A stretch of 64,000 nt of DNA from positions 930,001 to 994,000 of the forward strand of contig NC_016472.1 in the NCBI RefSeq assembly GCF_000226095.1, read 5' to 3'. Both the position numbers and the translations under genes were made by a program. The notes below the pieces were generated by a model. It had not been told where the DNA came from and made no database searches. It was given only the letters and a program-made list of their open reading frames with translations. The DNA comes from Thermothelomyces thermophilus ATCC 42464. Lineage: Eukaryota > Ascomycota > Sordariomycetes > Sordariales > Chaetomiaceae. Positions 926 through 22,370 of this stretch are shown here, piece after piece. Position 1 is the stretch's first letter; each line of letters begins with the position of its first letter.

Positions 926-1344
926 TATAACAAACCTAACTTAGACTTCTTCTAAAAGGGTCCAGACGGAGGTAGGTAAAGCGGGACAAGCGTGCAGGTC
1001 GTCTGAGGGATTCGGTAAAGCCAAAGGGTTCATAACAACACTTAGAGTTGTCTCTCACAGTAGTTAGCAATGCTTGGTATAAGTACTGTGATTGTGATTG
1101 TTACCACTGGTGAACTCCTAGAGTCTACCATAACAAGTGACTATCTACATGTATATATAATCCTAGTGATCATTCCTGATTACGGTGATCGTGAGTGATC
1201 GCATGGCGGTGATCACCCTGATCACTGGTGAGCGTAGTAATCACTATGCTTCCTATGCTATAATTGGTCCTTTCGTTCCTTCGACTTGATTAGCCCATTC
1301 GTGCTAGTGGCTTAGGCAGCATCTACATGTATATTTCCGTGATA
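926..1344 (-). repeat. 3' LTR of element A (type-A U3)
   Basis: A 419-bp long terminal repeat that begins TATAACAAACC and ends CCGTGATA; the unmutated ends would be TGTAACGAACC and CGTGACA. In element orientation U3 is the right-hand part (about 1145-1344) and R/U5 the left-hand part. The U3 contains a dense set of GTGATCA/GTGATCG words (about 1168-1235), several of them palindromic. Compared with the partner at 7997-8416, the differences I could see are C/T or G/A transitions. Confidence 0.93.
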
Positions 1345-1361
1345 CGATGCCCTCCCTCCGA

Positions 1362-1380
1362 GGCTTTCGACCCGAAAGCC
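1362..1380. other. Perfect hairpin beside the polypurine tract of element A
   Basis: GGCTTTCG, three spacer bases, then CGAAAGCC: an 8-bp perfect inverted repeat, 17 bp inside the 3' LTR of A and next to the purine-rich primer tract. The equivalent site in element B (about 13325-13343) keeps the structure with one C-to-T mismatch. Retention in both elements suggests a structural role in the transcript or in plus-strand priming; this is inference. Confidence 0.6.
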
Positions 1381-1473
1381 CTCTTTAGGCCGTCTTAAAT
1401 AGCGCTAACATCCCTTGTGTTCCTTGTACGTGTTTTTCTCCTTAGCCTCTTGTTGCCCTTCGTACTGTCAGTC

Positions 1474-2084
1474 ATGCTATCTAACGCGCGTAGATCCCTA
1501 GTATCTATTCGTCGTGAGCGTTTAGCTTAGTTTATTTCCGATTACAGGTTTATAGTGATAGCGTGTTCTCATTGCGCAGAGCATAACCAAGTGTACAAGA
1601 TGATTGAAAAATCTCGTCGCTACAAGGCTTACGTATATCGGGGTCGTGCTTACGATAGTTCCGGCGTTCTAGTTTCTTCTTGTAAGTTCCTATTTCCTTG
1701 CGAGAGCACATCTCTGATTGTAATGTAGTAGATCGTATTATACGCGAGCAATATCGTTTGAAGGCTAAAGAGAAAGAGGCCGAAGCCTTGTTATAAGAAT
1801 ATTAACGTAAAGCTTCTAAGGCATTAGCCCGTCTGACTTGGGTCCGTAAATAACGAGAGTTCCTAGTAGAGAAGGGGGCAGACATGGTTATATAGGGTTT
1901 GTCGAATCTAGACGAATTAGAGGCAGTAGAACAGTAAGAATCGGGGGCCGTTATATAGCTTAACGGTGGCGTCGACGTTATTAACTAGGGCGCTATTTTC
2001 GGTTCTATCCTAGATTTGCCTTTAGCCGATCCGGGTTCTGCCGATAGAACTATTCTAGTTTCTTAGGGTAGTTCAAATTCTTAA
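1474..2084 (+). pseudogene. Opposite-strand Cys-rich ORF of element A, RIP-broken
   Basis: A degraded plus-strand ORF lying opposite to gag-pol, between the end of pol and the 3' LTR. Residues at 1564-1653 follow C-x2-C-x6-Y-x8-Y-x2-Y-x6-Y; each Tyr is one G-to-A transition from Cys, so the ancestral spacing was C-x2-C-x6-C-x8-C-x2-C-x6-C, formally that of a fungal Zn2Cys6 cluster. A Glu/Lys/Ala/Leu-rich, coiled-coil-like stretch follows (about 1745-1900), then a conserved tail containing ADRTILVS. A frameshift near 1690-1745 and several TAG/TAA codons break it. Its last 104 bp overlap the end of pol (stop at 1981) tail to tail. The loop between the second and third Cys lacks the basic residues usual in GAL4-type proteins, so DNA binding is not assured. 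Confidence 0.65.
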
Positions 2085-5000
2085 CTAGTTCCTATGAGTT
2101 GTCTTCTAGTCTGAAATCAAGCCACTTGACCAGATACTATAGTTCCCTATCGATAATATGTGAATCTAGAATTTCTTTAACGTCCTATTCTTCCTCTTCG
2201 TCCTCTGCTTCGATGTACGTGGCAACCTTAGCGCTCTTTGGTACTAGTTCGAGAAGTGAAATATAAAAAACATCTGTCTGTAGTTGTATAGATAATAGTA
2301 ATGATAGTTGGTAGTTAGATGTCGAAATTTGTTCTTTGATAATAAAGGGTCTAACCTTCTTGAAGTCTAGCTTCATGCTTAGTCGTTTGGTTCGTAAGTT
2401 TCGTGCAATTAGGTAGACTTTATCTCCCCTCTCTAGGCAAGGTCCCTCGAGCCTGTGTCTGTCGTAGTAGTTCTTCATTCTGGTCTTGACAAACTCGAGT
2501 TCCTTTTTAAGCTTTTCATATAGTATGTACATTTGTTCCGCTTTGACTACTACTCTTAGCACTATAGCCTCTAGTCCTTACCTAAGGTCTACTTTATATC
2601 TGTAGTTTGTAAAGAACGGTATGACTTTAGTCATTTCTATTGGCATCGTATTGTAAGCGAGTTATACTGTTAGCAATAGCATGACCTAGTCGTTTTGCTA
2701 GTAGTTAACGTAAGAACAGAGATACTGCTCGACAACTTGGTTTAGTCGCTCCGTTTGTCTATCAGTCTGTAGGTGATATGCTATTGACAGCTTACTGTTA
2801 ACGCCTAATTGTTGTATTAACGCTTGCTAGAACTTCGACGCGAACTTCGTGTCTCTGTCGGTGATCCATTCTTATAGCCAAGCATATACTAATGCTACTT
2901 GCTAATAGATTACGTCTGCTAACTGTTCTGCTATCTAGGACTCCTTGTAGGGAAAGAAGTATACCCACTTAGTTAGGCGATCTATTATAGTAAGAATACT
3001 ATCGTAGGTCACTCTTATAGCTATATCCTTAGATTCTAGTAGCTTTGTGATAAAGTCTATCGTAACTAAACTCTATAGTTTGTCAGCTGTCGGCAGTGGC
3101 TAAAGTAGCCTATATGGCTTATGTCATACCGTTTTACTCCGATTACAGATGTCATAGTTCCGTACGACTTCCTTAACTCGTACCGTTAACTATAGAAAGT
3201 CGTAGTGTTTCTTGACTTGTGCGACAGTCTTCGTAACTCTTTTATATCCTCCGAGTTTCGACTCGTGGAGTTCTCGAATCATCTGTAGCTATTGATCTTT
3301 GTCGTAGATATACGCTTTGCCTTGGTACTAGAGTTTCCTATCTCTTTCTTCTACTCCGTTAGGTACTAGTGGTCTAGGTGCTACTTAATACTATACCTTA
3401 TTAATCCTTTCTTCTTAAAAGATTATATAGCATTCTAGGAACAAGTCAAATAGATTATCTTCTATAGGTATCTACGTTTTATAATATAGTATTCCGTCTG
3501 TTCGTTCCTTAAACAATAGTAGTGTTATTCCCGTTTGTCCTTTCGTATGATCCGTTCGTCGGCTTAAAATGTCCGCTTATACGTTCTCTTTGCCCTTCTT
3601 ATAGCAGATCTCAAAGTTGAATTCTACGAGGAATTCTGCCCATTGTATTTGTCGTCTGTTAAGCTCCTTCGTTATTATAAAGTATCGCAAATTCTTATAA
3701 TCCGTATATACTTATACTAGTTTAATCGTACCGCTAAGGTATGGCCGCCATTCCTTAAAAGCTTCGACAATCGTAAGTAGTTCCTTGTCGTAGATTAGAT
3801 AATTAAGACGTGGTCTATCAAGCTTCTTTGAAAAGAAGGCTACAGGATGTAGCTTTCCTTGTCTATCTCGTTATCCTAATTGTCCTCCGATGGCATAGTC
3901 TAAAGCGTCTATTTCTATCTCAAATAGCTTCTTAGGGTCCGGTAGTACTAGTACTAGGTCTTCAGTAATGGCGTTACGAATCTACGTAAATGCTTACTTG
4001 TATTATTCTTCCCATTGGAATTTAGTATTCTTCCTAGTAAGTTTGTATAAAGGTCGTACGATCGCTCTAAAGTTCCTAATGAACATCCAGTAGAAGTTTG
4101 TAAATCCGATAAAGCTTTGTACTTCCGTAACTAACGTCGGTCGTGGCTAATTCTTGATAGCTTTAACCTTTAAAGGTTCTATCCGAATTTGTCCTAGGGA
4201 TATCTCGTATCCTAAAAAGACTATCTTCCTAACATGGAATTCGCTCTTTTCCTTATTAACTAATAGCTTGTATATGTATAGCGCGTCTAGCACTACTTTT
4301 ACGTACTTCCGGTGTTTGTCTATCGTCTTAGAGAAGATAAGTATGTCGTCGAGATAACATACTACGAATTTATCGAGAAAGGGTCGGATAGCTTGATTAA
4401 TTAGGGCTTAGAACGTTGCCGGCGCGTTTGTAAGTCCGAATGGCATAACAAGGTACTTGTAATAGCTATAAGGTATCCTAAAGGCCGTTTTCCACTTGTC
4501 GCCTTCTTTGATCCGTATATGGTTATAGGCTAATGGTAAGTCAAGACACGTGAAATATTAGGCTCCTGCTAACTAATCTTAGAGCCGTGAGATTAGCGGT
4601 AACGGGTATCGGTTTTTCACGGTCTATTCGTTAAGTTGCTAATAGTTGACATATAACTATAGCTTTCCGTCTTTCTTAGGTATAAACAGGATTAGGTAGC
4701 CTGCTAGTAATGTTGATAGGTAGATATATCCTCTTCGAAGGTTCTCCTTTAAATATCGTTTAAGTTCTTCGTTTTATATCTAGCTCGTGTAGTAAATCTT
4801 AAAGAACTTTAGTTATGCTCCTTCCTTAAGCTTGATCTTGTGATCTTATAGGCCGTGTTCTGGTAGTCCTTCCAGATGCTTCGGTTTGAATGCTAGGTAT
4901 CCTTTGTATTCCTTCGGTACTTCCCTAGTCTTGTCTCGTCTCTCGGTTTTCTAGTAGTATACAAACTTGGTTCTATCTATAGCGATGCTAGCGATTTCTC

Positions 5001-5640
5001 CTGTCTTAACCTACTACTCCTATTATAGTGCTCCGTATTCGTCAACGGAGAGAACAGCTATTAGTGATTTAGCTCGTTCCTCCTATTGCGATATCGATAT
5101 TATTATATCGCCTCTTCTAGAGTCCGTAGTAGTCTACCTGCCACTATCCGTCTCTTGTGGTAAATCTATAGGATATGCCTTTCCTTAAGCATTGTCTACT
5201 TACGATCCTTGTACGCTCCCTATCTTACTAGTCAAATACGACTCTATTTGGGGTCGTAGGTAGCTACCATTCTTCTAGCTAATATCTAGGTCGTAATCTT
5301 CATGCCATAGTAACCCTAATATTATGTCTTTGTCATTGCCTATGTCTACGATGCTAAATATAACTACTATAGTCTTCCCTACCATAGTGATGTCGATCGG
5401 TTTAGTCTCCCTACGTACCTATTACGTCGGAAATGGCCCTTTGACTATACTATACTTCTACTTCATTCTCTAGGGTATCCGTAGCTAATTTACAAGCGTC
5501 GGCGAAATCAGATTCATCTCTGCTCCACTATCTACTAGTACGAGCATTTCGTACTGTTTCCACTATGCTGTTATCTACAATCGCTTGTCTTGCCGCCGTC
5601 GTCCAAAGATTGCGGCGATTTCCTATGTTTCTGCCGGGAG
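1981..5640 (-). pseudogene. pol: pol of element A: PR-RT-RNaseH-IN-chromodomain, broken
   Basis: This is the degenerate pol of element A. On the minus strand from the right: aspartic protease around VDSGA (5521-5536), reverse transcriptase with intact YLDD (4345-4356) followed by ILIFSKT, RNase H (about 3560-3900), integrase (about 2600-3400), a post-integrase module (2185-2562, includes LERGDKVYL) and a chromodomain (about 2050-2190, with VKEILDSHII and YLVKWLDF). In-frame TAG codons interrupt it throughout, mostly at expected Trp or Gln positions. The last codons run into the opposite-strand ORF at 1474-2084. A chromodomain places the element among the chromoviruses, whose integrases are thought to target chromatin with particular histone marks. 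Confidence 0.85.
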
Positions 5641-6985
5641 GTCTTGATATAGTGGTCTCTTACGCCAGTCCCTCCTATACTATGCTACTACTCGCCACTA
5701 CGCGGGCGTTAATGGTTTCCGGGCCCCTCGAAGGGCCCTAACCCGTTTCCCAGGTCAGTGCTAACCTCTTCGGTTATTTGGCTAATAATGGCTTTGTCGA
5801 TTGTGCTCATTTCCGTAAGCCATTTAGTGCTTGTAGCTTCCTACTATTAGGTCCGTTCTGCTTTCTATCATATGTGCTATAGCTTTATCTAAAGCTCTCA
5901 AATTCGTAATTTCTTTTCGTCTATATAATAAAGGTAATCGTTACTTTAGCACAAGTCCTATATATCTCGTCCAATTCTATAGTACCTAGGCTAGGCTGGT
6001 CTTAGAACTATCGTAATGCTTTCTAAATCGCAGGCTTCGATCTTCCAGAGCAATTCGGCCGCTCTATTTCCTATATCGTAGACCTATTCCACAGGGCATA
6101 AGCTTCCGTCCTCATTTCCTTGCCGGGTCGGCTAGTAATTATTTTCGAATTTGTCGCGGAAGTGGTATCGGCATTCGTGTACCATACACTGGAACCAGGG
6201 CACTTGTGTATATGCCTCGTGTCAAGGGTATAGTCGCGTAGCGTTACCTAGGAGGTATTAGAATTCTTTCCCAAATCCTTCCTATTGTACGTAGACTATA
6301 GGTACTCTAGTGCTAATATAGGAGTGTTTCTTCTAGTAGCTTTCCTACGTACGCTTGTCTTTTCCGTGGTTCGCTCGCATGAACTAGTATTCTAGGTTCC
6401 ATATGTCGTTACTAAGTTGTTAGCCGTTAAGATACTCGGCGTAGCTATCAGGCCTATCGTATATTATAGGCTATTCTCCTTTGATAGTTTCTACAATACA
6501 TCGGAGTTCCCTTATTTCGTCCCTCATTCTATCGCTCTAGTAGGCGAGTCAAATCAAGCATCTATCCCGTTCGCGTAGTTCCGCGTTAAGCCGAAAAACT
6601 TCGTTACGATATTATTCGATTCGTTCCTAGAGGAATAGAACATTAGGTCCGGGTCTTCCGATTCCTTAGGTATTAGTTGTCTACAATCTATCCCGCCTCT
6701 ATATAACTGTAAAACCCCACTGCCTCAAGACTAGGAGAATCGAAACTAGCGGTATATATTTTCCTGCCATGTCCTATTTGGCAAGACCTGTCTCTGGGTC
6801 CATAGTGACCAGTTTAGAGTACGATGCTTGTTCGTCTTCGCCATCGCCGTCGTATCTGAGACTATCCGTGTCACTGCCCTTATCTTCGTAGCTTGTGGCC
6901 GTTACTTCGATAACGTCCTTAGTAGTTTCGTTAATAGTCGTAATTTCCTTTCTAGGGGTTAGTTTCCATTCTTTCTTTGGGCTCT

Positions 6986-7960
6986 AGCATTCTCGCTTAT
7001 AATGCCCTTTCTTTCTATAGTTATAATAGGTAATATTAGACTTATCTTTAGTTATCTTCTTCTAGTCCTGCTTCTACGTTACATCTATATCTATAGCTCT
7101 AGGGTACGTCCTATATAAGGTACTAACATACGCTTGCTTTTTCTTATCGTTAGCCTTAACTATAGTTCTGTTCATTTGACCTCGTTTCTATTACTCTCGT
7201 ATATAGAGTCGATTATCGATTCTAATAGCCTATATAATATATTCGTCCAAGGTCTCAGGCTGATTATACTTATATAGCTCGTCCTTAACCTTTTCCTTTA
7301 AGCTATTATAGAACAATTACATTAACGCCTTGTCATTAAGCTAAGACTTGAGCATATCCTGTCTAAACTATATGGCATAGGAGGCTACTAACTTGGTCTA
7401 TCGGAGATTGGCGAGTCTTTCTTACGTATAAATCTTCTCGTCCTTATTGCCAAAAACTTTCCAAAGCTCTTCTTCGAAACGGTCGTAAGATCGAAAGACT
7501 ACTTACGTAAACGCGTCTCGGTTGTCTTCGTCTTCCTTAGTGAGATAGTCGTTCTATATAGGCTTAAACCATCTAAGTGCCTTGCCCTCTAGTCTCGTAG
7601 CTATATAGAGGACTTTAGCTTTATCGTCTAGAAACTTGTTATTATTAAGCCAGAAGTAGGATCAGAGGTTTGTTAGGAATCCTACAAGATCCTCCTTAGT
7701 TCCTCCGTATTTACTAGGTAGTTCGATCTTAATACGGCTTGCTTTAGCGGTCTCGAGCGTCTCGATTTTGGCGTAGGCCTCGTTAACCAACTTCTACAAG
7801 TACTTTTCGCGATTCTCGAGTTCCTTGATTCGAGCTTAAGCAGCCTTATCTCTCTAGTCCAACTCCTGAATTCGCTACTAGAGTTGACCAAGCTAAGTAA
7901 GCAGCTATTCGGCTATAATGTTGGTAGCTATGTCGATATCGAGGTCGAAGTCACCTCCGT
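6986..7960 (-). pseudogene. gag: gag of element A, broken
   Basis: Minus-strand gag remnant next to the 5' LTR. The frame contains a coiled-coil-like start (IKELENREKYL), the capsid-type stretch with GFLTNL, LEGKALRWF and YLTKEDEDN, then a basic region and a CCHC zinc knuckle (about 6986-7035). The knuckle reads YYNYRKKGHYKREC, with the first two Cys mutated to Tyr. Several in-frame TAG/TAA codons destroy it. A linker of about 1.3 kb, with few recognisable motifs, separates the knuckle from protease. Confidence 0.8.
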
Positions 7961-7996
7961 TCTAAACTATAATAGAATAAAGGGAGTAGTAATAAT

Positions 7997-8416
7997 ATGT
8001 AACGAACCTAACTCAGACTTCTTCTGAAAGGGTCTAGACGGAGGTAGGTAAAGCGGGACAAGCGTATAGGTCGTCTAAGGGATTTGGTGAAGCTAAAGGG
8101 TTTATAACAACACTTAGAGTTGTCTCTTATAGTAGTTAGCAATGCTTGGTATAAGTACTGTGATTGTAATTGTTACCACTGGTGAACTCCTAGAGTCTAC
8201 TATAACGAGTGACTATCTATATGTATATATAATCCTAGTGATCATTCCTGATCACGGTGATCGTGAGTGATCGCATGGCGGTGATCACCCTGATCACTAG
8301 TGAGCGTAGTGATCACTATGCTTCCCATGCTGTAATTGGTCCTTTCGTTCCTTCGACTTGATTGGCCTATTCGTGCCAGTGGCTTAGGCGGCATCTGCAT
8401 ACATATTTCCGTAACA
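7997..8416 (-). repeat. 5' LTR of element A (type-A U3)
   Basis: A 420-bp LTR starting TGTAACGAACC and ending CCGTAACA, directly followed by the duplication ATTTA (8417-8421). It is less mutated than its partner at 926-1344. The U3 part (about 8215-8416) has the same GTGATCA-rich cluster, including GTGATCACC. Confidence 0.93.
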
Positions 8417-11400
8417 ATTTAGGGTTGTAGGTAGCTATTATTCTTTTAGCTAATATCTAGATTATAATCTTTATACTATAATAACCCTAATATTATATCT
8501 TCATTATTACCTATATTTATAATACTAAATATAATTATTATAGTCTTCCTTATTATAGTAATATTAATTAGTTTAGTCTCTTTATATATTTATTACATTA
8601 GAAATAGCCCTTTAACTATACTATACTTCTACTTTATTCTCTAGGGTATCTATAGCTAATTTATAAGTGTCGGCAAAATTAGGTTTATCTCTACTCTACT
8701 ATCTACTAGTACAAGCATTTTGTACTATTTCTATTATACTATTATCTATAGTCGCTTGTCTTGCTACTATTGTCTAAAGATTATAGCGATTTCTCATATT
8801 TCTGCTAGGAGGTCTTGATATAGTAGTCTCTTATACTAGTTCCTCTCATACTATGCTACTACTCGCCGTTATATAGGTATTAATAGTTTCCGGGCCCCTC
8901 GAAAGGCCCTAACCCGTTTCCTAGGTTAGTGCTAACCTCTTCGGTTATTTAGCTAATAGTAGCTTCGTCGATCGTGCTTATTTCCGTAAGCTATTAAGTG
9001 CTTACGGCTTCCTACTATTAAGTCTGTTCTACTTTTCGTCATATATACTATAGCTTTATCTAAAGTTCCTGAATTCGCGATTTCTTTTCGTCTATATAAT
9101 AAAGGCAGTCGTTACTCTAGCACGAGTCCTATATATCTTGTCCTATTCCGTAATGCCTAAGCTAGGCTTGTCTTAGAACTATCGTAATACCTTCTAGATC
9201 GCGGGCTTTAATCTTCTAGAGCAATTCGGCCGCTCTATTTCCCATATTATAGACCTATTCTATAAGGTAGAGGCTTCCGTCCTTATTTCCTTGTCGGGTC
9301 GGCTAGTGATTGTTTTCGAATTTATCGTAGAAGTGATATCAGCATTTATATACTATATACTAGAACTAGGGTACTTATATATATACCTCGTATTAGGGGT
9401 ATAGTTATATAGCGTTACTTAGGAAGTATTAGAATTCTTTCCCAAATCTTTCCTATTATATGTAGACTGTAAGTACTCTAATGCTAAAGTAAGAGTATTT
9501 CTTCTAGTAGCTTTCCTATATACGTTTGTCTTTTTTACGGTTTATATATATAAACTAGTATTCTAGGTTCTATACGTTATTACTAAGTTGCTAGTCATTA
9601 AGGTACTCGGTATAGCTATTAGGCCTATTATATGTTATAGGCTATTCTCCTTTGATAGTTTCCATAATACGTCGGAGTTCCCTTATTTCGTCCCTTATCT
9701 TATCGCTCTACTAGGTAAGTCGAGTCAAGCGTCTATCCCGTTCGTGTAGTTCTATATTAAGTCGGAAAACTTCATTATAGTACTATTCGATTTATTCCTA
9801 GAGGAATAGAACATTAGGTCCAGGTCTTTCGATTCCTTAGGTATTAGTTATCTACGATCTATCCTACCTCTATATAACTATAAAACCCTATTACCTTAAG
9901 GCTAGGAGAATCGAAATTAATGGTATATATTCTCCTACCATGTCTTATTTAGCAAGACCTATCTCTAGGTCTATAGTAACTAGTTTAGAATATAGTGCTT
10001 ATTCGTCTTTACTATTACCGTTATATCTAAGACTGTCCGTATTACTACCCCTGTCTTTGTAGCTTGTAGCCGCTACTTTGATAACATCCTTAGTAGTTTC
10101 GTCGATAACTATAATTTCCTTTCTAGGGACTATCTTCTATTCTTTCTTCGGGCTTCGACATTTTCACTTATAGTGCCCTTTCTTTCTATAGTTATAGTAA
10201 GTAATATTAGACTTGTCTCTAGTTATCTTCTTCTAATCTTGCTTTTACGCTATATCTATATCTATAGCTCTAGGGTATATCCCGTACAAGGTACTAACGT
10301 ACGCTTGCTTTTTCTTGTTATTAGCCTTAACCGTAGTTCTATTTATTTGGCCTTATTTCTACTACTCTTATATATAAAGTCGATTATTAATTCTAATAAC
10401 CTATATAATATATTTGTCTAGAGTCTTAGGCTAATCGTACTTATATAGCTTATCTTTAACCTTTTCCTTTAAGCCGTTATAGAATAATTATATTAATACC
10501 TTATCGTTAAGCTAAGACTTAAGTATATCCTATTTAAACTATATAGTATAGGAGGCTATTGACTTAGTCTATTAGAGATTAGCAAGTCTTTCTTACGTAT
10601 AAATCTTCTTGTCTTTATCGCTAAAAACCTTCTAAAGCTCTTCTTCGAAACGGTCATAGGATCGAAAGACTGCCTATATAAATGCGTCTTAGTCGTCTTC
10701 GTCTTCCTTAGTAAGGTAGTCATTCTATATAAGCTCGAACTATCTAAATGCCTTACCCTCTAGTCTTATAGCTATATAGAGGACTTTAGCTTCATCGTCC
10801 GGAAACTTATCGTTATTAAGCTAGAAGTAAGATTGAAGATTTGTTAGGAATCCTATAAGATCTTCCTTAGTTCCTTTATATTTGCTAGGTAGTTCGATCT
10901 TAATATGGCTTACTTTAGTGGTTTCGAGTGCTTTAATTTTAGTATAGGCCTTATTAACCAACTTCTACAAGTACTTTTCGCCGTTCTCAAGTTCCTTAAT
11001 TTAGGCTTAAGTAGTCTTATCTCTCTAATCTAATTCCTAGATCTACTAATAGAGTTAACTAAGCTAAGCGAGTAACTATTTAGCTATAATATTAGTAGCT
11101 ATATCGATATTAAGGTCAAAGTCACCTCCGTTCTAAACTATAATAGAACAAAGGGAGTGATAGCAACATATAACGAACCTAACTTAGACTTCTTCTAAAA
11201 GGGTTTAGACAAAGGTAGATTAAGCAGGACAAGTAGGTAGGTCGTCTAAGGGATTCGGTAAAGCCAAAGGGTTTACAATAACACTAGAGTTATCTCTTAT
11301 AGTAATTAGCAATGCTTGGTATAAGTACTGTGATTGTAGGTTACTATTACTAGTAAACTCTTAGAGTCTACCTAACGAGTGACTATCTATATGTATATAT

Positions 11401-11586
11401 AATCCTAGTGATCACTCCTAATTACGGTGATCGTGAGTGATCGTATGGTGGTGATTACCCTGATTGCTAGTAAGCGTAGTGATTACTATGCTTCCTATGT
11501 TATAATTGGTCCTTTCGTTCCTTTGGCTTGATTGGCCTATTTGTGCCGGTAGTCTAGGCGGCATCTGTATGTATATTTCCGTGATA
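8417..11586 (-). mobile_element. Older family 1 copy, right half (protease, gag, 5' LTR)
   Basis: The homology interrupted at 920 resumes here: 8422 onward aligns with 5238-7996 of element A and runs through the protease and gag regions into an LTR at 11169-11586. This half is more AT-rich and more heavily mutated than A, as expected of an older insertion exposed to more RIP. The protease box reads VDSR (about 8690-8712) instead of VDSG. With 1-920 it forms one original element split by A. Confidence 0.9.
11169..11586 (-). repeat. 5' LTR of the older family 1 copy
   Basis: A 418-bp LTR with the degraded start TATAACGAACC and end CGTGATA. It has the type-A U3 with GTGATCA-like words, strongly eroded by transitions. 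It directly abuts family 2 sequence at 11587, so this copy too appears to be inserted in family 2. Its target duplication cannot be checked because the other LTR lies outside the window. Confidence 0.9.
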
Positions 11587-12860
11587 TTTGCCTATGTATG
11601 TATAATGGTTTATGGATTAGCTATTATGACTATATTTCTCTTATTATTATACGTTTATTGATAATATCGTTATCTTCTCGAATATAGCTAAGAATTATAT
11701 ATAGCACTTAAGAATGATCTTTACCTTATTTTAGAAGAAGAATATCGCTATCTTACCTACCAAATTATATATCGGCTACCTAAACGTAGAACTACTTGGC
11801 TTCTATATAGATAGTCTTAGCCTTACTAATACGGATTAATGTATTAATACGTTTAAGTAGTTATCCTTTCTATATACGTTAAAGGCATTAGAATAGTACT
11901 TAGGTGCTACTAGTTTTCTATAACATTTGATTCTATACTATATAAAAATCGCTAAGCTACTCTAGAAACGCAAAACTAACCTACTTATATATAGCCATAA
12001 GACTAGCGAACTAGAAGTCAGAAACCGTACTAGGAGGATAGGCTATTATAGCCGTACTTCCTTCGACCTAACCAATCAGGAAAAAGCGTCCTTTGCCGCC
12101 CTATAAGAGGCCATTTATCACGAGAATCCGACTATCCTCTACCACTTTATTCCTAACAAGTAGCTATATATTTAACCTAATAGCTATTTAGAACGCGGAT
12201 TTAGCGTCATAGTCTTCTATACTCGCGATAGATATAACTAGCGCCTAGGTAATCCTATCCTAGCTAATTAAGTGCTACCGGTTATATTTCTAAGCTGCCT
12301 ATTGACGAAGGCTGAAATGCGATACAGACCTTCCGAATAGGAAGTCGCTTGTTTGGTCTAGGCAATTCGTAAACTACATACGATAGTCTATTTAGCGTAT
12401 ACGCTAGTCATCGTTCTAACTAATTACACTGCTATACGTGGTATTATAGAATAAACTAACCTAGATACGAGTTTAACTGACCGCGCTAACCGTCACCTGA
12501 TCAACATATCTATCCACCTATCGTAGTACGACCTTAAAGTCTACTACCTGCCTAGAAGACTTAACTTTATACCGGATGCCTTAAGCAGATTAAGCGCCTT
12601 AGAGAACCCCGAACCTTCTAAACGCCTAGATAGACTAGCCGTACTTAACGACATTTAGTTCGCTTTCGCTAAGGCATAGATAGATCTAGAGCTTAAGGCA
12701 AAGTTCGTTAACGGCTATAAGGCTAATGCTAAGTATACCCTTATTATAGAAGATTTGAAAAATAACCGTATAGATAGAACTATCGACGATAAGGGTATCG
12801 CTGTTTTCTTGCGCTATAGGCTACCGTTCGTCCTAATTAACGAGCTCCTCTATTATATCC
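11587..12860 (+). mobile_element. Family 2 chromovirus, first half (RT end and RNase H)
   Basis: Plus-strand remnant of a second gypsy family. Translation with stops read through shows the RT end (DNIVIFSNIAKN near 11655), a thumb/connection region with LKALE and YLGATSFL, and an RNase H domain that includes RGFSVIVFYTRD, LTKAEMRYRPSE and FIPDALSRL (about 12180-12600). It is riddled with TAG/TAA codons. It is interrupted at 12860 by element B and continues at 20448; bases 12856-12860 (TATCC) are the target duplication. The 5' half of the element is not in the window, because family 1 DNA adjoins it at 11586. Confidence 0.85.
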
Positions 12861-13307
12861 TGTGACGAACCCAACTCAGACTTCTTCTGAAAGGGTTCAG
12901 ACAAAGGTGGATCGAGCGGGACAAGTAGGCAGGTCGTCTGAGGGATTCGGTAAAGCCAAAGGGTTCATAACAACACTTAGAGTTATCTCTCACAGTAATT
13001 AGCAATACTTGGTATAAGTACTGTGATTGTAATTGTTACCACTGGTAAACTCTTAGAGTCTACCTAACGAGTGACTAGCTAGCTATATATATACAATTGT
13101 CTATCCCTCTTCAATAGTTATCACTAGTACCATTTCTCCTTTTACTCCGTGATTCCACGTTATCGACGGTGACATGTTATTATCACTAGTGAAGACCTTA
13201 GCCTTGGCGGTGATAATCTTCTGATTGGTCTGTCAAGTGATTGGCTGTCGGAATGTCCTACGTCCTGGCTGTAGCCTGCCAGGCTATCTATATGCTTATC
13301 TGTAACA
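12861..13307 (-). repeat. 3' LTR of element B (type-B U3)
   Basis: A 447-bp LTR from TGTGACGAACC to TGTAACA. The first 216 bp align with the LTRs of A; from about 13077 to the end (U3) the sequence is unrelated in ordinary alignment, except for short words such as GGCGGTGAT. Confidence 0.93.
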
Positions 13308-13433
13308 CGATGCCCCTTCTCTAAGGCTTTTGACCCGAAAGCCCTCTTAGGCCGTTTCAAATAGTGCTAACACCCTTCGCTTGTAAGTACTACATTCTTT
13401 CTGTTTCCATATTATAGTCGCTATGTTGATAAG

Positions 13434-14087
13434 ATGCTAATAGAGAAACGGAAGTCGTATTCTACACGTTACCATGCTTCCCTTGCTTAGAACATCGCTA
13501 AGAACGGTTTTATCATTATGCCTTGCTCTTGGTACGCGTCACAAGGTCTTGTCTGTAAAATGATCGCGTGTATAAAGCGTTATAAGGCCTGTGTTCGTTA
13601 AGGTCGTTCTTATAATGGCTTAGGCATCTCGTTTTCTTCTTATAAGCTTGTCTTTCTTTTTTTTTTTCAAGTATAATTCCTGATGTTTGTTCTAGTAGAT
13701 TATATTCTCTAGGAGTAGTATCGTATTAAGGATGCTAAATGTCGTGCTAAGCTTAAGCTAGATAAATCCTAATACTATCTAGAAGAAGCTTAGCACAAGT
13801 TGTCCGAAAAGCTTACGTAGCTCCGGTGTCTTCGTTAGTAGAAGGAGTTTTTGGTAGAGAAAGGTACTAATATAGTGGCGTGTGGTCTATCGACCTTAGA
13901 CAAGTTAGAGGCGGTTGAGCGGCAAGAGCAGTAAGAGGCGCCTGCTATACCCTTATCAGAGATTAATGATGCCGCCAATGCTATCGACTAGGGCATTGTC
14001 TTTGGTTCTGTCTTGGGTTTCCCTTTGGTCGATCTAGGTTCTGCCGGTAGAACTATTCTAGTTTCTTAGGGTAGTTTAAGTTCTTGA
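13434..14087 (+). pseudogene. Opposite-strand Cys-rich ORF of element B, RIP-broken
   Basis: The counterpart of the ORF at 1474-2084. It can be read in one frame of 217 codons interrupted only by TAG/TAA codons that RIP could have made from CAG, CAA or TGG. At 13524-13613 it keeps exactly the same spacing, C-x2-Y-x6-C-x8-Y-x2-C-x6-Y, so different Cys positions survive in the two copies and together give all six. Outside the Cys frame (shared VCKMI, KAC, GR) the N-terminal halves of A and B are strongly diverged although pol is nearly identical. A Leu/Lys/Glu-rich stretch follows (13730-13900). The end overlaps pol of B (stop at 13981) by 107 bp. Function unknown; a zinc-binding nucleic-acid protein is the simplest reading. 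Confidence 0.68.
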
Positions 14088-17000
14088 CTAGCTCTTATAA
14101 GTTATCCTCTAGTCCAAAATTAAGCTATTTGACTAGATACTATAGTTCCCTATTAATAATGTATAAATCTAGAATTTCTTTAACGTCCTATTCTTCCTCT
14201 TTATCTTCTACTTCGATGTGTATAGCAACCTTAGCATTCTTTAGTACTAGTTCGAGAAGTGAAATATGAAAAATATCTATCTATAGTCGTATAGATAATA
14301 GTAACGATAATCGGTAGTTAGATGTCAAAATTTGTTCTTTGATAACGAAGGGTCTGACCTTCTTAAAGTCTAGCTTCGTGTTTAGTCGTTTGGTTTGTAA
14401 ATTTCGTATAATTAGGTAGACTTTGTCTCCCCTCTCTAGGCAAGGTCCCTCGAGCCTATATTTGTTATAGTAGTTCTTTATTCTAGTCTTGACAAACTCG
14501 AGTTCCTTTTTAAGCTTTTTATATAGTACGTACATTTGTTCCGCTTTGACTGCTACTCTCGGCACTATGACCTCTAGTCCTTGCCTAAGGTCTGCTTTAT
14601 ATCCGTAGTTTGCGAAGAACGGTGTGACTTTGGTCGTTTCCGTTAGTGTTATGTTATAAGCGAGTTATGCTATTGGCAATAGTATGACCTAGTCGTTTTG
14701 CTAGTAGTTAATGTAAGAGTAGAGGTATTGCTTAATAACTTAGTTTAGTCGCTCTGTTTGTCCGTTAGTCTGTAGGTAATATGCCGTTAATAGCTTGCTA
14801 TTAATGCCTAATCATTGTATTAATGCTTGCTAGAACTTCGACACGAACTTTGTATCTCTATTAGTGATCTATTCTTATGGCTAAGCATATACTAATGTAA
14901 CTTGCTAATAGATTACGTCTGCTAACTGTTCTGCTGTCTAGGACTCCTTGTAAGGAAAGAAGTATACCTACTTAGTCAGGCGATCTACTATAGTAAGAAT
15001 ACTATCGTAGGTTACTCCTATAGCTGTGTCCTTAGATTCTAGCAGCTTCGTAATAAAGTCTATCGTAACTAAACTCCATAGTTTGTCAGCTATCAGTAGT
15101 AGCTAAAGTAGCCTATATAGCTTATATCGTGCCGTTTTACTCCAATTACAGATGTCGCAGTTCCGTACGACTTCCTTAACTTATACTGTTAATTATAGAA
15201 AGTCATAGTGTTTCTTGACTTGTGTAACAGTCTTCGTAACTCCTTTGTGTCCTCCGAGTTTCGACTCGTAGAGTTCTCGAATTATCTACAGCTATTGATC
15301 TTTGTCGTAGATATACGCTTTGCCTTGGTACTAGAGTTTTCTATCTCTTTCTTCTACTCTATTAGGTACTAGTAGTCCGGGTGCTGCTTAATACTATGCC
15401 TTGTTAATCCTTTCTTCTCGAAAGATTGTATAGTATTCTAGGAACGAGTTAAGTAGATTATCTTCTACGGGTGTCTGCGTTTTGTGATGTAGCGTTCTGT
15501 CTGTTCGTTCCTTGAATAATGGTAGTATTATTCCTGTTCGTCCTTTCGTATGATCCGTTTGTCGGCTTAAAATGTCTGCTTGTATATTCTCTTTGCCCTT
15601 CCTATAGTAGATCTTAAAGTTAAATTCCGCGAGGAATTTTGCCTATTGTATTCGTCGTCTGTTAAGCTCCTTTGTCGTTATAAAGTATCGTAAATTCTTA
15701 TAATCTATATATACTTGTACCAGTTTAATCGTGCTACTAAGGTATGGCCGCTATTCCTTAAAAGCTTTAATAATCGCAAGTAGTTCCTTGTTATAGATTA
15801 GATAATTAAGACGTGGTCTGTCGAGCTTCTTTGAAAAGAAGGCTATAGGATGTAGTTTTCCTTGTCTGTCTTGTTATCCTAATTGTCTTCCGATGGTGTA
15901 GTCTAAAGCGTCTGTTTCTACCTCGAATGGTTTCTTAGGGTCCGGTAGTACTAGTACTAGATCTTTGATAATGGCATTACAGATTTATATAAATGCTTGC
16001 TTGTATTATTCTTCCCATTAGAATTTAGCATTCTTCTTAGTAAGTTCGTATAAAGGTTGTATGATCGCTCTAAAGTTCCTAATGAACATCCGGTAGAAGT
16101 TTGTAAATCTGATGAAGCTTCGTACTTCCGTGACTGACGTCGGTCGGGGCTAATTCTTGATGGCTTTAATCTTTGAAGGTTCTATCTGGATTTATCCTAG
16201 GGATATCTTATATCTTAGAAACACCGTTTTCCTAACGTGGAATTCGCTCTTTTCCTTGTTAACTAATAGTTTGTATATATATAGCGCGTCTAACACTGCT
16301 TTTATATACTTCTGGTGTTCGTCTACCGTCTTAGAGAAGATAAGTATGTCGTTAAGATAATATACTATAAATTTGTCGAGAAAGGGTCGGATAGCTTGAT
16401 TAATCAAGGCTTAGAACGTTGCTGGCGCGTTCGTAAGTCCAAATGGCATGACGAGGTATTTATAGTGGCTATAGGGTGTCCTAAAGGCCGTTTTCCACTC
16501 GTTGCCTTCTTTGATCTATATATAGTTATAGGCCGATGGCAAGTCAAGACGCGTGAAATATTAGGCTCCTGCTAACTGATCTCGGAGCCATAAGATCAGC
16601 GGTAATAGGTATCGGTTTTTTACAGTCTGTTCGTTAAGTTGCCGATAGTTAACGTATAACCGTAGCTTTCCGTCTTTCTTAGGCATGAATAGAATTAGGT
16701 AGCCTGCTAGCGATGTTAACAGGCAGATATATTCTCTTCGAAGGTTCTCCTCCAAATATCGCTTAAGTTCTTCGTTCTATATCTAGCTTGTATAGTAAAT
16801 CTTAAAGAACTTTAGTCATGCTTCTTCCTTGAGCTTGATCTCGTAATCCTATAGGCCGTATTCTAGTAGCCCTTCTAGATGTTTCGGTTCGAATGCTAGG
16901 TGTCCTTTGTATTCCTTTGGTACTTCCCTAGTCTTGTCTCGTCTCTCGGTTTTCTAGTAGTATACAAACTTGGTTCTATCTATGGCGATGCTAGCGATTT

Positions 17001-17640
17001 CTCCTGTCTTAACCTACTACTCTAGTTACAGTGCTCCGTATTCGTTAACGGAGAGAATAGCTATCAGCGGTTTAGCTCGTTTCTCCTATTGTAATGTCGA
17101 TGTCGTTATACCGCTTCTTCTAGAGTCTATAGTGGTCTGCCTGCCACTGTCTATCTCTTGCGGTAGATCTATAGGATATGCCTTCCCTTAAGCATCGTCT
17201 GCTCGCGATCCTTGTATGCTCCCTATCTTGCTAGTTAAATATGACTCCATTCGGGGTCGTAGGTAGCTACTATTTTTCTAGCTAATGTCTAGGTCGTAGT
17301 CTTTATACTATAGTAACCCTAATATTATATCTTTGTCGTTACCTATATCTATAATACTAAATACGACTACTATAGTCTTCCTTACTATAGTGATATCGAT
17401 CGGTTTGGTCTCCCTATATACCTATTATATTAGAAATGGCCCTTTGACTATACTATACTTCTGCTTTATTCTCTAGGGTATCTGTAGCTAATTTACAAGT
17501 GTTAGCGAAATTAGGTTTATCTCTGCTCTACTATCTACTAGTACGAGCATTTCGTGCTATTTCTACTATGCTATTATCTATAATTGCTTGTCTTACCGCC
17601 ATCGTCTAAAGATTGTAGCAATTTCCTATATTTCTGCCGG
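13981..17640 (-). pseudogene. pol: pol of element B, broken
   Basis: Minus-strand pol with the same domain order as in element A. Longer open stretches remain at 14281-14565 (post-integrase module) and 16192-16755 (RT palm, containing DILIFSKTVDEHQKY and the preceding YLND, and upstream KLRLYVNYRQLNEQT). The protease motif near 17530 reads VDSR. The chromodomain is at about 14053-14195 (VKEILDLYII, YLVK). Stops are frequent. B ends one codon beyond the A stop, at a TAG. Confidence 0.83.
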
Positions 17641-18979
17641 GAGGTCTCGATATGGTAGTCTCTTGCGCCAGTCCTTCCTATACTATGCTACTACCCGCCG
17701 CTACACAGGCGTTAATGGCTTCTAGGCCCCTCGAAGGGCCCTGACCCGTTTCCTAGGTTAGTGCTAACCTCTTCGGTTGTTCGGCTGCTAGTAGCTTTAT
17801 CAATCGTACTTATTTCTATAAGCCATTAAGTGCTTATAGCTTCCTACTATTAGGTCTATTCTACTTTCTGTCGTATATACTATAGCTTCGTCTAAAGCTC
17901 CTAAATTCGCAATTTCTTTTCGTCTACGTGATAGAGGCAATCGTTACTCTAGCACAAGTCCTATATGTCTCGTCTAGTTCCGTAGTACCTAGGCTAGGCT
18001 CGTCTTAGAACTATTGTAATGCCTTTTAGATTGTAGGCTTCGATCTTCTAAAGCAATTCGGCCGCTCTGTTTCCTGTATTATAGACCTATTCTATAGGGT
18101 GTAAGCTTCTGTCCTCATTTCCTTGTCAAGTCGGCCAGTGATTGTTTTCGAATTTGTCGTGGAAGTGGTATCGGCATTTGTATGCCACACACTAGAACCA
18201 GGGCACTTGCGTATGTGCCTCGTATCGAGGGTATAGTCGTGTAGCGTTGCCTAGGAGGTATTGGAATTCTTTCCCGAATCCTTCCTATTGTATATAGACC
18301 ATAGATACTCTAGTACTAACATAGGAGTATTTCTTCTAGTAGCTTTCCTATATACACTCGTCTTTTCTACGGTTTACGTATATAAACTAGTATTCTAGGT
18401 TCTATATGTTGTTGCTAAGTTGCTAGCCATTAAGATACTTAGTATAGCTATCGGGCCTATCGTATATTACAGGCTGTTTTCCTTTGATAGTTTCCATGAT
18501 ATATTAGAGTTCCCTCATTTTATCCCTCATTCTATCACTCTAGTAGGCAAGTCAAATCAAGCGTCTATCCCGTTCGTGTAGTTCCGTGTTAAGCCGAAAA
18601 ACTTCATTATAGTACCATTTGATTCGTTCCTAGAGGAATAGAATATTAGGTCTAGGTCTTTCGATTCCTTAGGTGTCGGTTGTCTACAATCTATCCTACC
18701 TCTATATAACTGTAAAACCCTACTACCTCAAGGCTAGGAGAATCGAAACTAGCGGTATATACTCTCCTGCCATATCCTATTTGGCAAGACCTATCTCTAG
18801 GTCTATAGTGACCAGTTCGGAGTACGGTGCTTGTTTATCTTTACTATTGTCATCATGTCTAAGACTATCTATGTCATTACCCCTATCTTTATAGCTCGTA
18901 GCCGCTACTTCGATAACGTCCTTAGTAGTTTCGTTAATAGCTATAATTTTCTTTCTAGGGACTATCTTCTACTCTTTCT

Positions 18980-19965
18980 TCAAGCTATAACATTCTTGCT
19001 TGTAGTACCCTTTCTTCCCGTAGTTATAGTAGGTAACATTCGACTTGTCTTTGGTCGTCTTCTTCTAGTCCTACTTCTATACTACGTCTATATCTATAGC
19101 TCTAAGGTACATCCCGTACGAGGTACTAACATACACTTGCTTTTTCTTGTCGTTAGCTTTAACTATAGTTCCGTTCATTTGACCTCGTTTCTACTACTCT
19201 TATATATAGAGTTAATTATCGATTCTAATAGCCTATATAATGTATTTATCTAGGGTCTTAGGCTGATTATACTTATATAGCTTGTCTTTAACCTTTTCCT
19301 TTAAGCCATTATAGAATAGTTATATTAATGCCTTATTATTAAGCTAAGACTTAAGTATGTCCTATCTAAACTATATAATATAGGAGGCTACTAACTTAGT
19401 CTATTAGAGATTAGCGAGTCTTTCTTACGTATAAATCTTCTTGTCTTTATCGCTAAAAACCTTCTAAAGCTCTTCTTCGAAACGGTCATAAGATCGGAAG
19501 ACTGCCTATATAAACGCGTCTTAGTCGTCTTCGTCTTCCTTAGTGAGATAGTCATTTTATATAGGCTCAAACCATCTAAGTACCTTGCCCTCTAGTCTCG
19601 TAGCTATATAGAGGACTTTAGCTTTATCGTCTAGAAACTTGTTATCATTAAGCCGGAAGTAGGATTAGAGGTTCGTTAGGAATCCTATAAGATCTTCCTT
19701 AGTTCCTCTGTATTTGCCAGGTAGTTTAATCTTAATATGGCTCGCTTTGGTAGTCTCGAGCGCCTCGATTTTAGCGTAGGCCTCGTTAACCAACTTCTAC
19801 AAGTACTTTTCGCGGTTCTCGAGTTCCTTGATTTGAGCTTGAGCAGCCTTGTCTCTCTAGTCTAACTCCTAGATCTGCTACTAGAGTTAACCAAGCTAAG
19901 TAAGCAGCTGTTTGGCCGTGACATTAGTAGCTATATCGATGTTAAGGTCAAAGTTACCTCCGTTC
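18980..19965 (-). pseudogene. gag: gag of element B, broken
   Basis: Minus-strand gag remnant aligned with 6986-7960 of element A: coiled-coil start, capsid-type region and a CCHC knuckle near 18987-19040. RIP stops interrupt it. The linker from about 17640 to 18980 corresponds to the poorly recognisable gag-protease linker of A. Confidence 0.78.
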
Positions 19966-20000
19966 TGAACTATAACAGAACAAAGGGAGTGGTAATAACG

Positions 20001-20447
20001 TGTAACGAACCTAACTTAGACTTCTTCTAAAAGGGTTCAGACGAAGGTAGATCGAGCGGGACAAGTAAGCAGGTCGTCTAAGGGATTCGGTGAAGCTAAA
20101 GGGTTTATAATAACACTTAGAGTTATCTCTTACAGTAATTAGCAATGCTTAGTATAAGTACTGTAATTGTAATTGTTACTACTAGTAAACTCTTAGAGTC
20201 TATCTAACGAGTGACTAGCTAGCTATATATATATAATTATCTATCCCTCTTTAATAGTTATTACTAGTACTATTTCTCCTTTTACTCTGTAATTCTGCGT
20301 TGTTAACGGTGACATGTTATTATCACTAGTGAAGACCTTAGCCTTGGCGGTGATAATCTTCTGATTGGTCCGTCAAGTGATTGGCTGTTGGAATGTCCTG
20401 CGTCCTGGCTGCAGCCTGCCAGGCCGTCTATGTGCTTATCCGTGACA
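20001..20447 (-). repeat. 5' LTR of element B (type-B U3)
   Basis: A 447-bp LTR from TGTAACGAACC to CCGTGACA, followed by the duplication TATCC (20448-20452). It has the same length as its partner at 12861-13307; the differences seen are transitions. Confidence 0.93.
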
Positions 20448-22370
20448 TATCCGCCTAGATAGTATACGTACACTATATGTTCTGTCGAGCCTCGTGTAAT
20501 ATATCCTAAGCTTAGCCTATAATGAGAAGTATTACTTTGGAACTAATAGGATAATATACGACTTGTATAGTATCGTAATCGATAGAAAAACTAGGTATAT
20601 ATAGGACTACGTGAAATATTACCTTATCTGTCAAGTTAATGCCACAAATCGTAACCTTCCTATAGGTAACTACTAGCTAATCTATCTATTAGATACGCTA
20701 CCTATATAGGTAATCGCTATCGATTTTATAGTAGTGTTACTATTAGTTCTTTTAGCTAGAACTCCTTAGCACTTGAACGGATATAACAAATTTAATTCGA
20801 TATTAACCATGTCTTGTAAATCGTCTAAAAGAATACTCCTTATACTAGGTCACTCTAACTATACCGCTATAGACTAGGGCTATATATTAATATAATAACT
20901 GCTCCTATCCGACTAAGGAGTACTAACTGCCGTTATATCTAACCGTAACTATAAATTTATATCCGAATTATAGACTAGTATATAGAAAGCGTTAGGTACG
21001 AAGTTATTAATAACTACTACATATTACCTATAGGGAGATAGTCTTATAGAACAAAAGAACTAGACGGTAGAAATCGCTCTACGTTTCTTCGTTTATAAGA
21101 AGCTAGATAACAATTAGACTACAATACTTCTATAGCTTTAGTAGCATTTAAATAGCGTATATACTGCCTCTATTAGCGTATCTCCCTATAAGTTACTATA
21201 TGGTTTCAAACTAGCTAGGCCATTAGAAGCACTAATAGCGCCGTTGTCAAAAACGGTATAGGATATCCTAGTTCTATATAAATATCTACGCTAAGATACC
21301 TAAATAGCAATAGACTTTATAGCAGCCAGAGCTAAATACAGATACAATGCTAGCCATTATAACATTAAATTTAAGCTAGGTAACTAAGTATATCTATACC
21401 TATACTATAGCTACTACCTACTAGGTTAACTATTGTATAAGTTATCCTAATAGTACATTAGACCTTTTAAAGTCATTAAACGTATTAGCTACCTAGCTTA
21501 TTATCTTTATTTATTACCAAATATAGATATCTATCCCATAATATTAGTAATATACTTATTACCTATACCTCTAGGCACTAACCTATACAACCATGCCATA
21601 CCACCTCCTAACCCTATTAAGGATAGCTATACTAATAGTAGTTTAGAATCTAGAGACAAGTACAAACTTAAGCGTATCTAGAATTACAAGCTTATATACG
21701 GCAAGTATAAATATCTAGTCAAATAGAAAGGACTCGGCTACGAATACGACATTTAGAAGACTAACTTCTAGCTATACTATATACGTAAGATGATCAACGA
21801 ATACTAGGCACGCTAGGGAGGTCAACCTATAACGGCTCAAGCCACGCCAAGGACTCCTACGAAGAAAACCATAAGTGGTAAACGCCAACATAGACGCCCT
21901 CGCAAAAAGGCATCGAAGACTCCCCCGGAAGGAGCCATAGATAGAAGACGCCAAAGTAAGGCTATAGATAGCCAAGAGGAAGATATATAGGACACTATAA
22001 TAGTAAGATAACGCTACTACTTTCTGTTACAATGTTGCTACGGAAAGAAGGCACGTTTAAGAGCTATTTAGAGCTATAGTATAGGCACTACGTTTTTTTT
22101 TCTAGGCAGGGGACTTGATGTAGTACGTTATCTACGGACATGTCTATCATGTAAGGCTAGATAAGATAAGACCTGTAGATCTGGTAAACGGGCTGGTAAA
22201 CGGAGGGTTCTTTGTTCCTATCCTCTACTTATACAGAGCTATAGGGCTAGTAAACGTAGGAAGAAGACATCGCACTTTTGAACTATTTATAACTTACCAA
22301 CTTTTCCATCAATTGGAACTATCTTCCATCTATTGGAAACCATCCTCTATCAGTTTCCTTAACGGAGTTG
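20448..22370 (+). mobile_element. Family 2 chromovirus, second half (integrase, chromodomain, 3' end)
   Basis: Continues 11587-12860 after the excursion of element B. On the plus strand, with stops read through, the integrase zinc-binding end (ICQVNATNR near 20630), the catalytic core (VIAIDFIVV, then VISNRNYKF where the expected Asp is changed to Asn, then ALGTKLLITT), and the post-core region (HLNSVYTASISVSPYKLLYG) are readable. A chromodomain follows (about 21670-21810, GKYKYLVK and GLGYEYDI) and a basic tail rich in Arg, Lys and Thr (to about 21990). A 3' LTR may start at TGTAGTACG (22119), but the partner LTR is absent, so its end near 22,370 is only set by the change in base composition. 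Confidence 0.82.

Follow-up and report, generated by a model that had tools for sequence, protein, structure and literature searches.

An antisense gene for a Zn2Cys6-like protein, inherited in one block with U3 in a fungal chromovirus: a putative regulator of the element's own promoter

Copies of a Ty3/gypsy retrotransposon of the fungus Thermothelomyces thermophilus ATCC 42464 harbor, between pol and the 3′ long terminal repeat (LTR), a gene that is read from the strand opposite to gag-pol and encodes a small protein with a predicted zinc-cluster module. The gene travels with the U3 region of the LTR, and its predicted product probably regulates the LTR promoter of the element itself. The analysis was centered on a 64,000-nucleotide stretch of DNA, hereafter the window (NC_016472.1, positions 930,001-994,000; positions given below are those of the window). 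The first 22 kb of the window consist of AT-rich repeats, ending in a sharp GC jump near 22 kb, and include two full-length copies of the element, A and B. The LTR pair, the ends, and the target-site duplication of A (ATTTA at 921-925 and 8417-8421) were read from the sequence, as was the target-site duplication of B (TATCC at 12856-12860 and 20448-20452). The family is assigned to the chromoviruses by the chromodomain at the C-terminus of pol: PF00385 was detected with 52.4 bits (cut-off 25.1) at the pol end of a stop-free B-type copy, L061, which also contains a Tf2-1-like SH3 domain. The features of the two copies are the following.

926 to 8416, minus strand: element A, full-length chromovirus (Ty3/gypsy with chromodomain), mutated by repeat-induced point mutation (RIP)
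926 to 1344, minus strand: 3′ LTR of A, with U3 at about 1160-1344 and R-U5 at about 926-1160, the border being placed at the jump in A/B divergence
1474 to 1681, plus strand: exon 1 of the antisense gene, copy A; the six cysteine positions hold 2 Cys and 4 Tyr
1682 to 1728, plus strand: predicted intron, copy A; 47 nt, GTAAGT...TGTAG, phase 1
1729 to 2084, plus strand: exon 2, copy A; long-helix part and C-terminal tail, the 3′ end overlapping the end of pol on the opposite strand
12861 to 20447, minus strand: element B, full length, RIP-mutated, with the same gag-pol body as A
12861 to 13307, minus strand: 3′ LTR of B, with the U3 half at about 13095-13307 (inferred border)
13434 to 13641, plus strand: exon 1, copy B; Cys kept at 3 of the 6 positions
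13642 to 13695, plus strand: predicted intron, copy B; 54 nt, with a T-tract that varies in length among B copies
13696 to 14087, plus strand: exon 2, copy B, in the two-exon reading

The initial annotation of the window had described an opposite-strand frame in both copies; its coordinates, cysteine spacing, and account of cysteine loss stood, but not the open frame, the single frame of 217 codons in B, or the restriction of divergence to the N-terminal half. The frames do start at 1474 and 13434 and end at 2084 and 14087, with stop codons at 2082-2084 and 14085-14087. Both contain internal stops, and no plus-strand frame of at least 80 amino acids is present there in the six-frame list. The 217 codons of B are obtained only if stops are read through and because its intron is 54 nt long; the span of A is not a multiple of three because of the 47-nt intron that it includes. 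This predicted intron, which had escaped the initial annotation, interrupts the gene at the same place and in phase 1 in A, B, and L061, where it reaches 68 nt. Its donor is of the type GTAAGT or GTAAGC, with mutations in some of the copies, and it also has a CTRAT-like branch site and a YAG end. Joining the exons produces the sequence Ser-Ser-Leu-Asp-Arg-Ile, which resembles SSLSRI and SQLDRI in the annotated relatives P0011 and P0002, respectively. Among 56 relatives with the exact cysteine pattern, an in-frame insert of similar length was found at this place in 8 and was absent from 37, the remaining 11 being unscored; the 37 may represent spliced models, transcripts, or intron-less lineages. 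Since the gene consists of two exons around a phase-1 intron, an antisense transcript is needed for its expression. The antisense intron would escape removal from the sense genomic RNA and therefore survive retrotransposition. The protein deduced from the sequence has about 195 residues; a helix at its N-terminus is followed by a Zn2Cys6-like module with six cysteines, then by a long helix and a tail that varies.

Both copies display the spacing C-x2-C-x6-C-x8-C-x2-C-x6-C if Tyr is accepted in place of Cys, and they have lost different cysteines, A keeping two and B three. In an alignment of 60 genomic copies (30 A-like and 30 B-like), the six positions were occupied by TGY or TAY in 359 of 360 codons and by CGT in the last one; the alignment comprised the best 30 of 40 scored matches per query, from about 800 candidates each, and was thus a sample selected for likeness. 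The proposal that Tyr codons are RIP products was supported by L061 (2.5 kb) and L062 (1.2 kb), two stop-free B-type loci that retain all six cysteines (a third locus, L063, is partly mutated). The RIP indices TA/AT and (CA+TG)/(AC+GT) were 0.66 and 1.07 in the element part of L061, 0.54 and 1.18 in L062, and 1.39-2.00 and 0.44-0.77 in the 60 RIP-mutated copies. By these indices, L061 and L062 are un-RIPed, and Tyr in A and B thus occupies positions that are Cys in intact members. Searching the T. thermophilus genome with the Chaetomium relative P0002 revealed at least 18 loci with stop-free exons 1 and 2 among up to 150 scored matches. Nine of these loci fall into each of two score classes, and a small number of additional exon-1 matches were stop-free as well. 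The presence of these loci beside many RIP-mutated copies suggests that the family was active after RIP last acted in this strain. A chance opposite-strand frame exposed by RIP, with Cys and Tyr counted generously, would account for the many stops in A and B. This reading, which was hardly credible in view of the 359 TGY or TAY codons, is refuted by the stop-free copies together with the six-cysteine relatives described below.

Relatives of the protein were found in increasing numbers with four natural B-type rows (9 relatives), with P0002 (16), and with nine relatives as queries (at least 94 at E ≤ 0.01, the best 7995 word-sharing candidates being scored). Those with a name include proteins from Verticillium, Colletotrichum, Metarhizium, Fusarium, Apiospora, Xylariaceae, Neoarthrinium, and Chaetomiaceae. 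All six cysteines are kept in relatives from Chaetomium, Corynascus, Verticillium, Metarhizium, and Colletotrichum. The exact spacing was present in 56 of 101 proteins, as well as in L061 and L062, and the general form C-x2-C-x6-C-x5..12-C-x2-C-x6..8-C in 58; those examined among the other 45 were exon-2 pieces, truncated models, or P0026, which has lost one cysteine. In the alignment of 54 relatives, 48 to 52 have Cys at each of the six columns, the remainder being mostly gaps. These comparisons indicate that six-cysteine members are widespread in Sordariomycetes. A search of IMG/VR viral contigs returned 82 pattern matches, with no relative among them.

Selection on the protein was assessed from transversions alone because RIP makes only transitions. 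Outside the overlap with pol, A-type copies differ from L062 by 30, 18, and 41 transversions at codon positions 1, 2, and 3, and the transversion-only ratio of nonsynonymous to synonymous change (dN/dS), uncorrected, was 0.42 in frame and 0.95 and 1.75 in the shifted frames, the 30 A-type copies sharing one divergence in this comparison. The counts between B and C (one of two further types defined below) were 45, 27, and 66, with a dN/dS of 0.50; the B-type group differs from L062 by too few transversions for a dN/dS. These values indicate a protein that is conserved and under selection. Together with the stop-free copies and the six-cysteine relatives, they uphold the suggestion of a gene selected before RIP. 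The main product could instead be the antisense RNA, acting through double-stranded RNA silencing with the protein as a secondary product or passenger, and passages of PMC7264820 do describe antisense transcripts of LTR elements that can feed small-RNA pathways. We consider this improbable since the in-frame constraint, the conservation of the cysteines over Sordariomycetes, and an intron at one place and in one phase point to a protein.

The initial annotation had placed the opposite-strand frame of A and B between the end of pol and the 3′ LTR, and this position recurs in the loci examined. An exon-1 match was found in 61 of 63 loci (L001-L063; none in the other two), and all 61 have opposite-strand pol downstream and an LTR upstream. 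Adjacency to pol is partly built into this count, since L001-L060, which provided 58 of the 61 loci, were found by queries reaching about 150 bases into pol. The same layout was observed in the loci found by protein, which are free from this bias (L061-L063, the type C loci L064-L065, and the type D loci L066-L068); L064-L068 have pol sequence downstream and R-U5 upstream of the antisense gene. In L061, the ends of pol (857) and of the antisense gene (733) define a tail-to-tail overlap of about 120 nt. The 42 codons that overlap pol contain about 3 transversions per copy in the comparison of A-type copies with L062. This overlap hardly changes between the A and B types and may therefore constrain the C-terminal tail encoded by the antisense gene. 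The arrangement also holds in three other genera, judging from four relatives whose annotated tails are antisense to the end of pol: P0002 (Chaetomium), P0009 and P0011 (Corynascus), and P0020 (Staphylotrichum), with E values of 6e-7 to 1e-15. On these sequence grounds, we regard the frame as a genuine antisense accessory gene that belongs to the element. As a separate observation, the gene models of P0002, P0011, P0009, and P0020 run beyond the likely stop into antisense pol; transposon genes of this kind are present in fungal protein sets under the labels hypothetical or ‘Zn(2)-C6 fungal-type’.

Zn2Cys6 proteins form a large family of fungal host proteins, and the members from Canariomyces and Parathielavia are annotated as ordinary genes, as expected if a host gene unrelated to the life of the element had been captured or nested. 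This origin is very improbable in view of the same location between pol and LTR in the loci examined, the antisense-pol tails of the relatives, and the four cassette types on one pol lineage.

The initial annotation related the cysteine spacing to the fungal binuclear zinc cluster, with a reservation on the basic loop. PF00172 was indeed the most frequent Pfam match; the reservation stands in part, as most scores were below the gathering cut-off (21 bits). Among nine typed 38-residue pieces, two were above it (23.4 and 21.7 bits), five scored 12.5-17.9 bits, and two had no match. With whole proteins, 35 of 54 members matched at E ≤ 10 (best 0.001; 16 bits for P0022), L061 scored 13.6 bits, and L065 had no match. 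None of the first nine relatives, most of which lack the cysteine part, matched PF00172 at E ≤ 1. There was also no PF00172 match with RIP-mutated pieces, a result that is uninformative because the cysteines are lost there. The structure model of P0022 (predicted local distance difference test score, pLDDT, 86; predicted template-modeling score, pTM, 0.47) contains a putative Zn2Cys6-like module followed by an 83-residue helix, and its structural matches include Pho7, HAP1, and PUT3. When the whole protein was compared as a profile with solved structures, the matches were weak: the best had an E value of 0.047, most concerned the helix, and CBF3 subunit B was matched at E 7.7. The zinc piece alone matched LEU3, Pho7, and CBF3B at E 1.2-3.7, ranking below an eggshell membrane protein (1e-6, over a short Cys-rich stretch) and a lectin (0.23). 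Putatively, the protein binds nucleic acid.

The second trait beyond the initial annotation is that U3 is swapped together with the gene. The near identity of pol between A and B, stated there, was found again (0-1.2% transversions per 250-bp block of gag-pol), but the divergence is not confined to the N-terminal half of the frame: it spans a block that comprises U3 of the LTR and the antisense gene and extends to the end of pol. It amounts to 20-26% in the gene and in the U3 of both LTRs and declines to 4% in the 250-bp block where pol ends. Type C (L064 and L065) differs from A and B by 0-0.3% transversions over about 790 bp of pol and by about 2% in R-U5, against 17-29% in U3 and 20-28% in the gene. 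In type D, R-U5 is 85-90% identical and pol differs by 0.2-0.3% transversions over 1.28 kb in one copy and 1.4-1.5% in another; the divergence of U3 is 20% relative to A, 25% relative to B, and 13% relative to C, and that of the gene is 23-29%. For C and D, gag-pol was compared over these pol stretches only. Gene type and U3 type agreed in all 63 loci typed with A and B probes (30 A and 33 B), an agreement that adjacency alone could give. According to these comparisons, the gene and U3 are inherited as one block, of which at least four types (A to D) occur on one gag-pol lineage. Change at silent sites of pol is near zero, which is beyond the effect of purifying selection; therefore, either the block was exchanged or gag-pol was homogenized. 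In retroviral biology, the RNA carries U3 and R at its 3′ end, so that a single template switch close to the end of pol would do the swap.

Each U3 contains repeats of the form GTGATNN, located in A and B as follows.

1166 to 1244, no strand assigned: 7 GTGAT sites in U3 of the A 3′ LTR, followed by CA (four), CG (two), or TA (one), on the sense-upstream side of TATATA at 1152
8238 to 8316, no strand assigned: 9 GTGAT sites in U3 of the A 5′ LTR, followed by CA (seven) or CG (two)
13120 to 13241, no strand assigned: 5 GTGAT sites in U3 of B, three GTGATAA and two GTGATT

On average, the U3 of A (30 copies) contains 3.9 GTGATCA, 1.4 GTGATCG, and 1.4 GTGATT per copy, that of B (33 copies) 2.2 GTGATAA and 1.6 GTGATT, and that of C (2 copies) 4.5 GTGATCC. 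GTGATCA, GTGATAA, and GTGATCC are rare elsewhere (0-0.03 in the U3 of other types, 0-0.03 in R-U5, and 0-0.07 in the gene). The GTGAT counts of the A 5′ LTR (9), C (6), and B (5) were reached by 0, 3, and 7 of 2000 Markov shuffles, respectively, for a motif chosen on the same A, B, and C sequences and for copies that share ancestry within a type. The D loci, obtained after the motif had been defined, contain 3-4 GTGATCC, and their GTGAT count was reached by 14-28 of 5000 shuffles, the U3 of D being partly alike to that of C. Six further C copies have 2-5 GTGATCC each. Six of eight C copies retain six sites, which point alternately one way and the other and are spaced 15 bp apart in a 34-bp period; the other two copies have lost one or two sites. 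Such everted pairs suit a dimer. Repeated 8-mers were not significant in the A 3′ LTR stretch (179 of 200 shuffles), unlike those in the A 5′ LTR (0 of 200). CGG or CCG occurs 1-6 times in each U3, which is not striking. The sites lie about 14-155 bp sense-upstream of TATATA at the inferred U3/R border, where operators or activating sites might be placed; the relation is correlative.

The probable explanation, in our judgment, is an antisense zinc-cluster gene that travels with U3 and whose predicted protein regulates its own LTR promoter. Antisense transcription would start in or beside U3 of the 3′ LTR, the transcript would be spliced, the protein would dimerize via its long helix, and the zinc module would bind the GTGATNN repeats. 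Binding would set transcription of gag-pol from the 5′ LTR, by repression or activation, with control of copy number as the likelier use. The reverse transcriptase would switch template near the 3′ end of pol, replacing the antisense gene and U3 together without changing gag-pol and R-U5. The inner LTR edge of A (in the window), C (L064 and L065), and D (L066-L068) contains another TATA-like stretch, TATATTT, which in A and C precedes the start of the antisense gene by about 130-150 bp and is absent from the B sequences examined. It could serve the antisense promoter.

A real gene whose protein acts elsewhere, by binding RNA or cDNA of the element or guiding integration, with GTGAT as a site for a host transcription factor, is unlikely. 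All four cassettes share the GTGAT core, as one host factor would predict; but the commonest suffix varies with the cassette (A has CA, B has AA, and both C and D have CC), and U3 changes with the antisense gene and not with gag-pol. Binding of the protein to U3 is itself putative, and plant antisense ORFs are of unknown role, with some of their proteins nuclear, in the passages of PMC7264820 devoted to them. Against action elsewhere, the modeled architecture resembles that of dimeric Zn2Cys6 DNA binders.

Regulation by the antisense protein may be extended, tentatively, to interchangeable ‘immunity’ cassettes, although we hold this extension to be doubtful. Each U3 and antisense gene would together provide a dimeric zinc-cluster regulator and its own operators, namely GTGATCA, GTGATAA, or GTGATCC half-sites beside the TATA box of gag-pol; cassettes would be swapped by template switching of the reverse transcriptase, and a copy that has acquired a new cassette would escape control by resident copies.

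If the protein does regulate the LTR, fungal retrotransposons of a widespread group possess a transcription factor of their own, antisense and spliced, swapped with its target sites. This would explain near-identical gag-pol with different U3 in related fungal elements, offer a handle on how a retrotransposon controls its own copy number, and imply that fungal annotations list many transposon genes as hypothetical or ‘Zn(2)-C6 domain’ proteins. Stop-free copies in a well-studied industrial fungus and simple sites make this reading directly testable.

Several observations concern the surroundings of the two elements. Element A is nested within another copy of the same family: positions 1-925 match 4326-5250 with 86% identity and 0.1% transversions, and the repeats of the region indicate that this host copy continues after A (8417-11589) to an LTR at about 11168-11586. 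Directly after B, 20448-22026 contains AT-rich remnants that resemble a different element (pol-like and chromodomain-like by eye). Rfam and tRNA scans of the window gave no matches.

As a rule, typical Ty3/gypsy elements do encode nothing beyond gag and pol, as had been stated, but there are exceptions: antisense genes have been described in plant Gypsy elements and in Boty of Botrytis. The gene brtn is an additional antisense gene of Boty-like chromoviruses of Botrytis cinerea, according to passages of papers that cite it (PMC8365987, PMC4227169, PMC5987419), and resembles the gene described here in belonging to a fungal Gypsy element that has a chromodomain. These passages do not mention a zinc cluster, an intron, or a swapped U3, and brtn is set apart by description only. 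No Botrytis-named protein was present among the at least 94 relatives listed, most of which are listed without a name. Plant Retand and Grande elements harbor antisense ORFs, among them aORF-3R, with a TRP28 domain (PF04195) and predicted DNA binding, as set out in passages of PMC11963269 and PMC7264820. They likewise comprise an antisense gene of unknown function between pol and the 3′ LTR, but differ in domain and lineage: Retand is not a chromovirus, the words ‘intron’ and ‘zinc’ are absent from the main text of PMC11963269, and PF04195 was not among the 25 families listed of the 114 Pfam families matched by our members. An additional ORF of unknown function is named in a legend for Tcn1-like chromoviruses of fungi and plants (PMC2864245). 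LTR variation on a shared body, as cassette swaps would leave, is reported in passages on VdLTRE2/3/4 of Verticillium dahliae, with nearly identical GAG and POL and LTRs of 476, 433, and 455 bp (PMC3441728), and on crapaud of Podospora, in which the 5′ half of the LTR varies, internal regions are mostly homologous, and two ORFs are drawn (PMC10787394). The same passages describe no antisense gene. The passages on rotifer elements contained nothing close (PMC5408684), and those on human T-cell leukemia virus (HTLV) place an antisense promoter in the 3′ LTR (PMC7264820). Antisense genes in plant elements and Boty are therefore already known; a zinc-cluster antisense family and a swapped, operator-like U3 cassette did not turn up in searches of open-access PubMed Central papers.

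Fungal Zn2Cys6 factors (HAP1, PUT3, Pho7, and GAL4) share with the antisense protein the six-cysteine spacing and the predicted order of zinc module and long helix, and its predicted fold is putatively of their kind. The antisense protein differs in that it scores mostly under the Pfam cut-off, is very small, is read antisense within a retrotransposon, and is associated with GTGAT repeats instead of CGG. HBZ of HTLV-1 is the product of a spliced antisense gene and regulates the viral LTR, as is proposed here for the fungal protein; it is a basic leucine zipper factor, not a zinc cluster, and we know of no swapped cassette for it. The immunity regions of lambdoid phages combine a repressor gene with its operators and are exchanged as one block on a common body. 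These are DNA phages, and regulation is a proposal in the case of the chromovirus. If the tentative ‘immunity’ reading is correct, the cassettes would be a retrotransposon counterpart of lambdoid-phage heteroimmunity.
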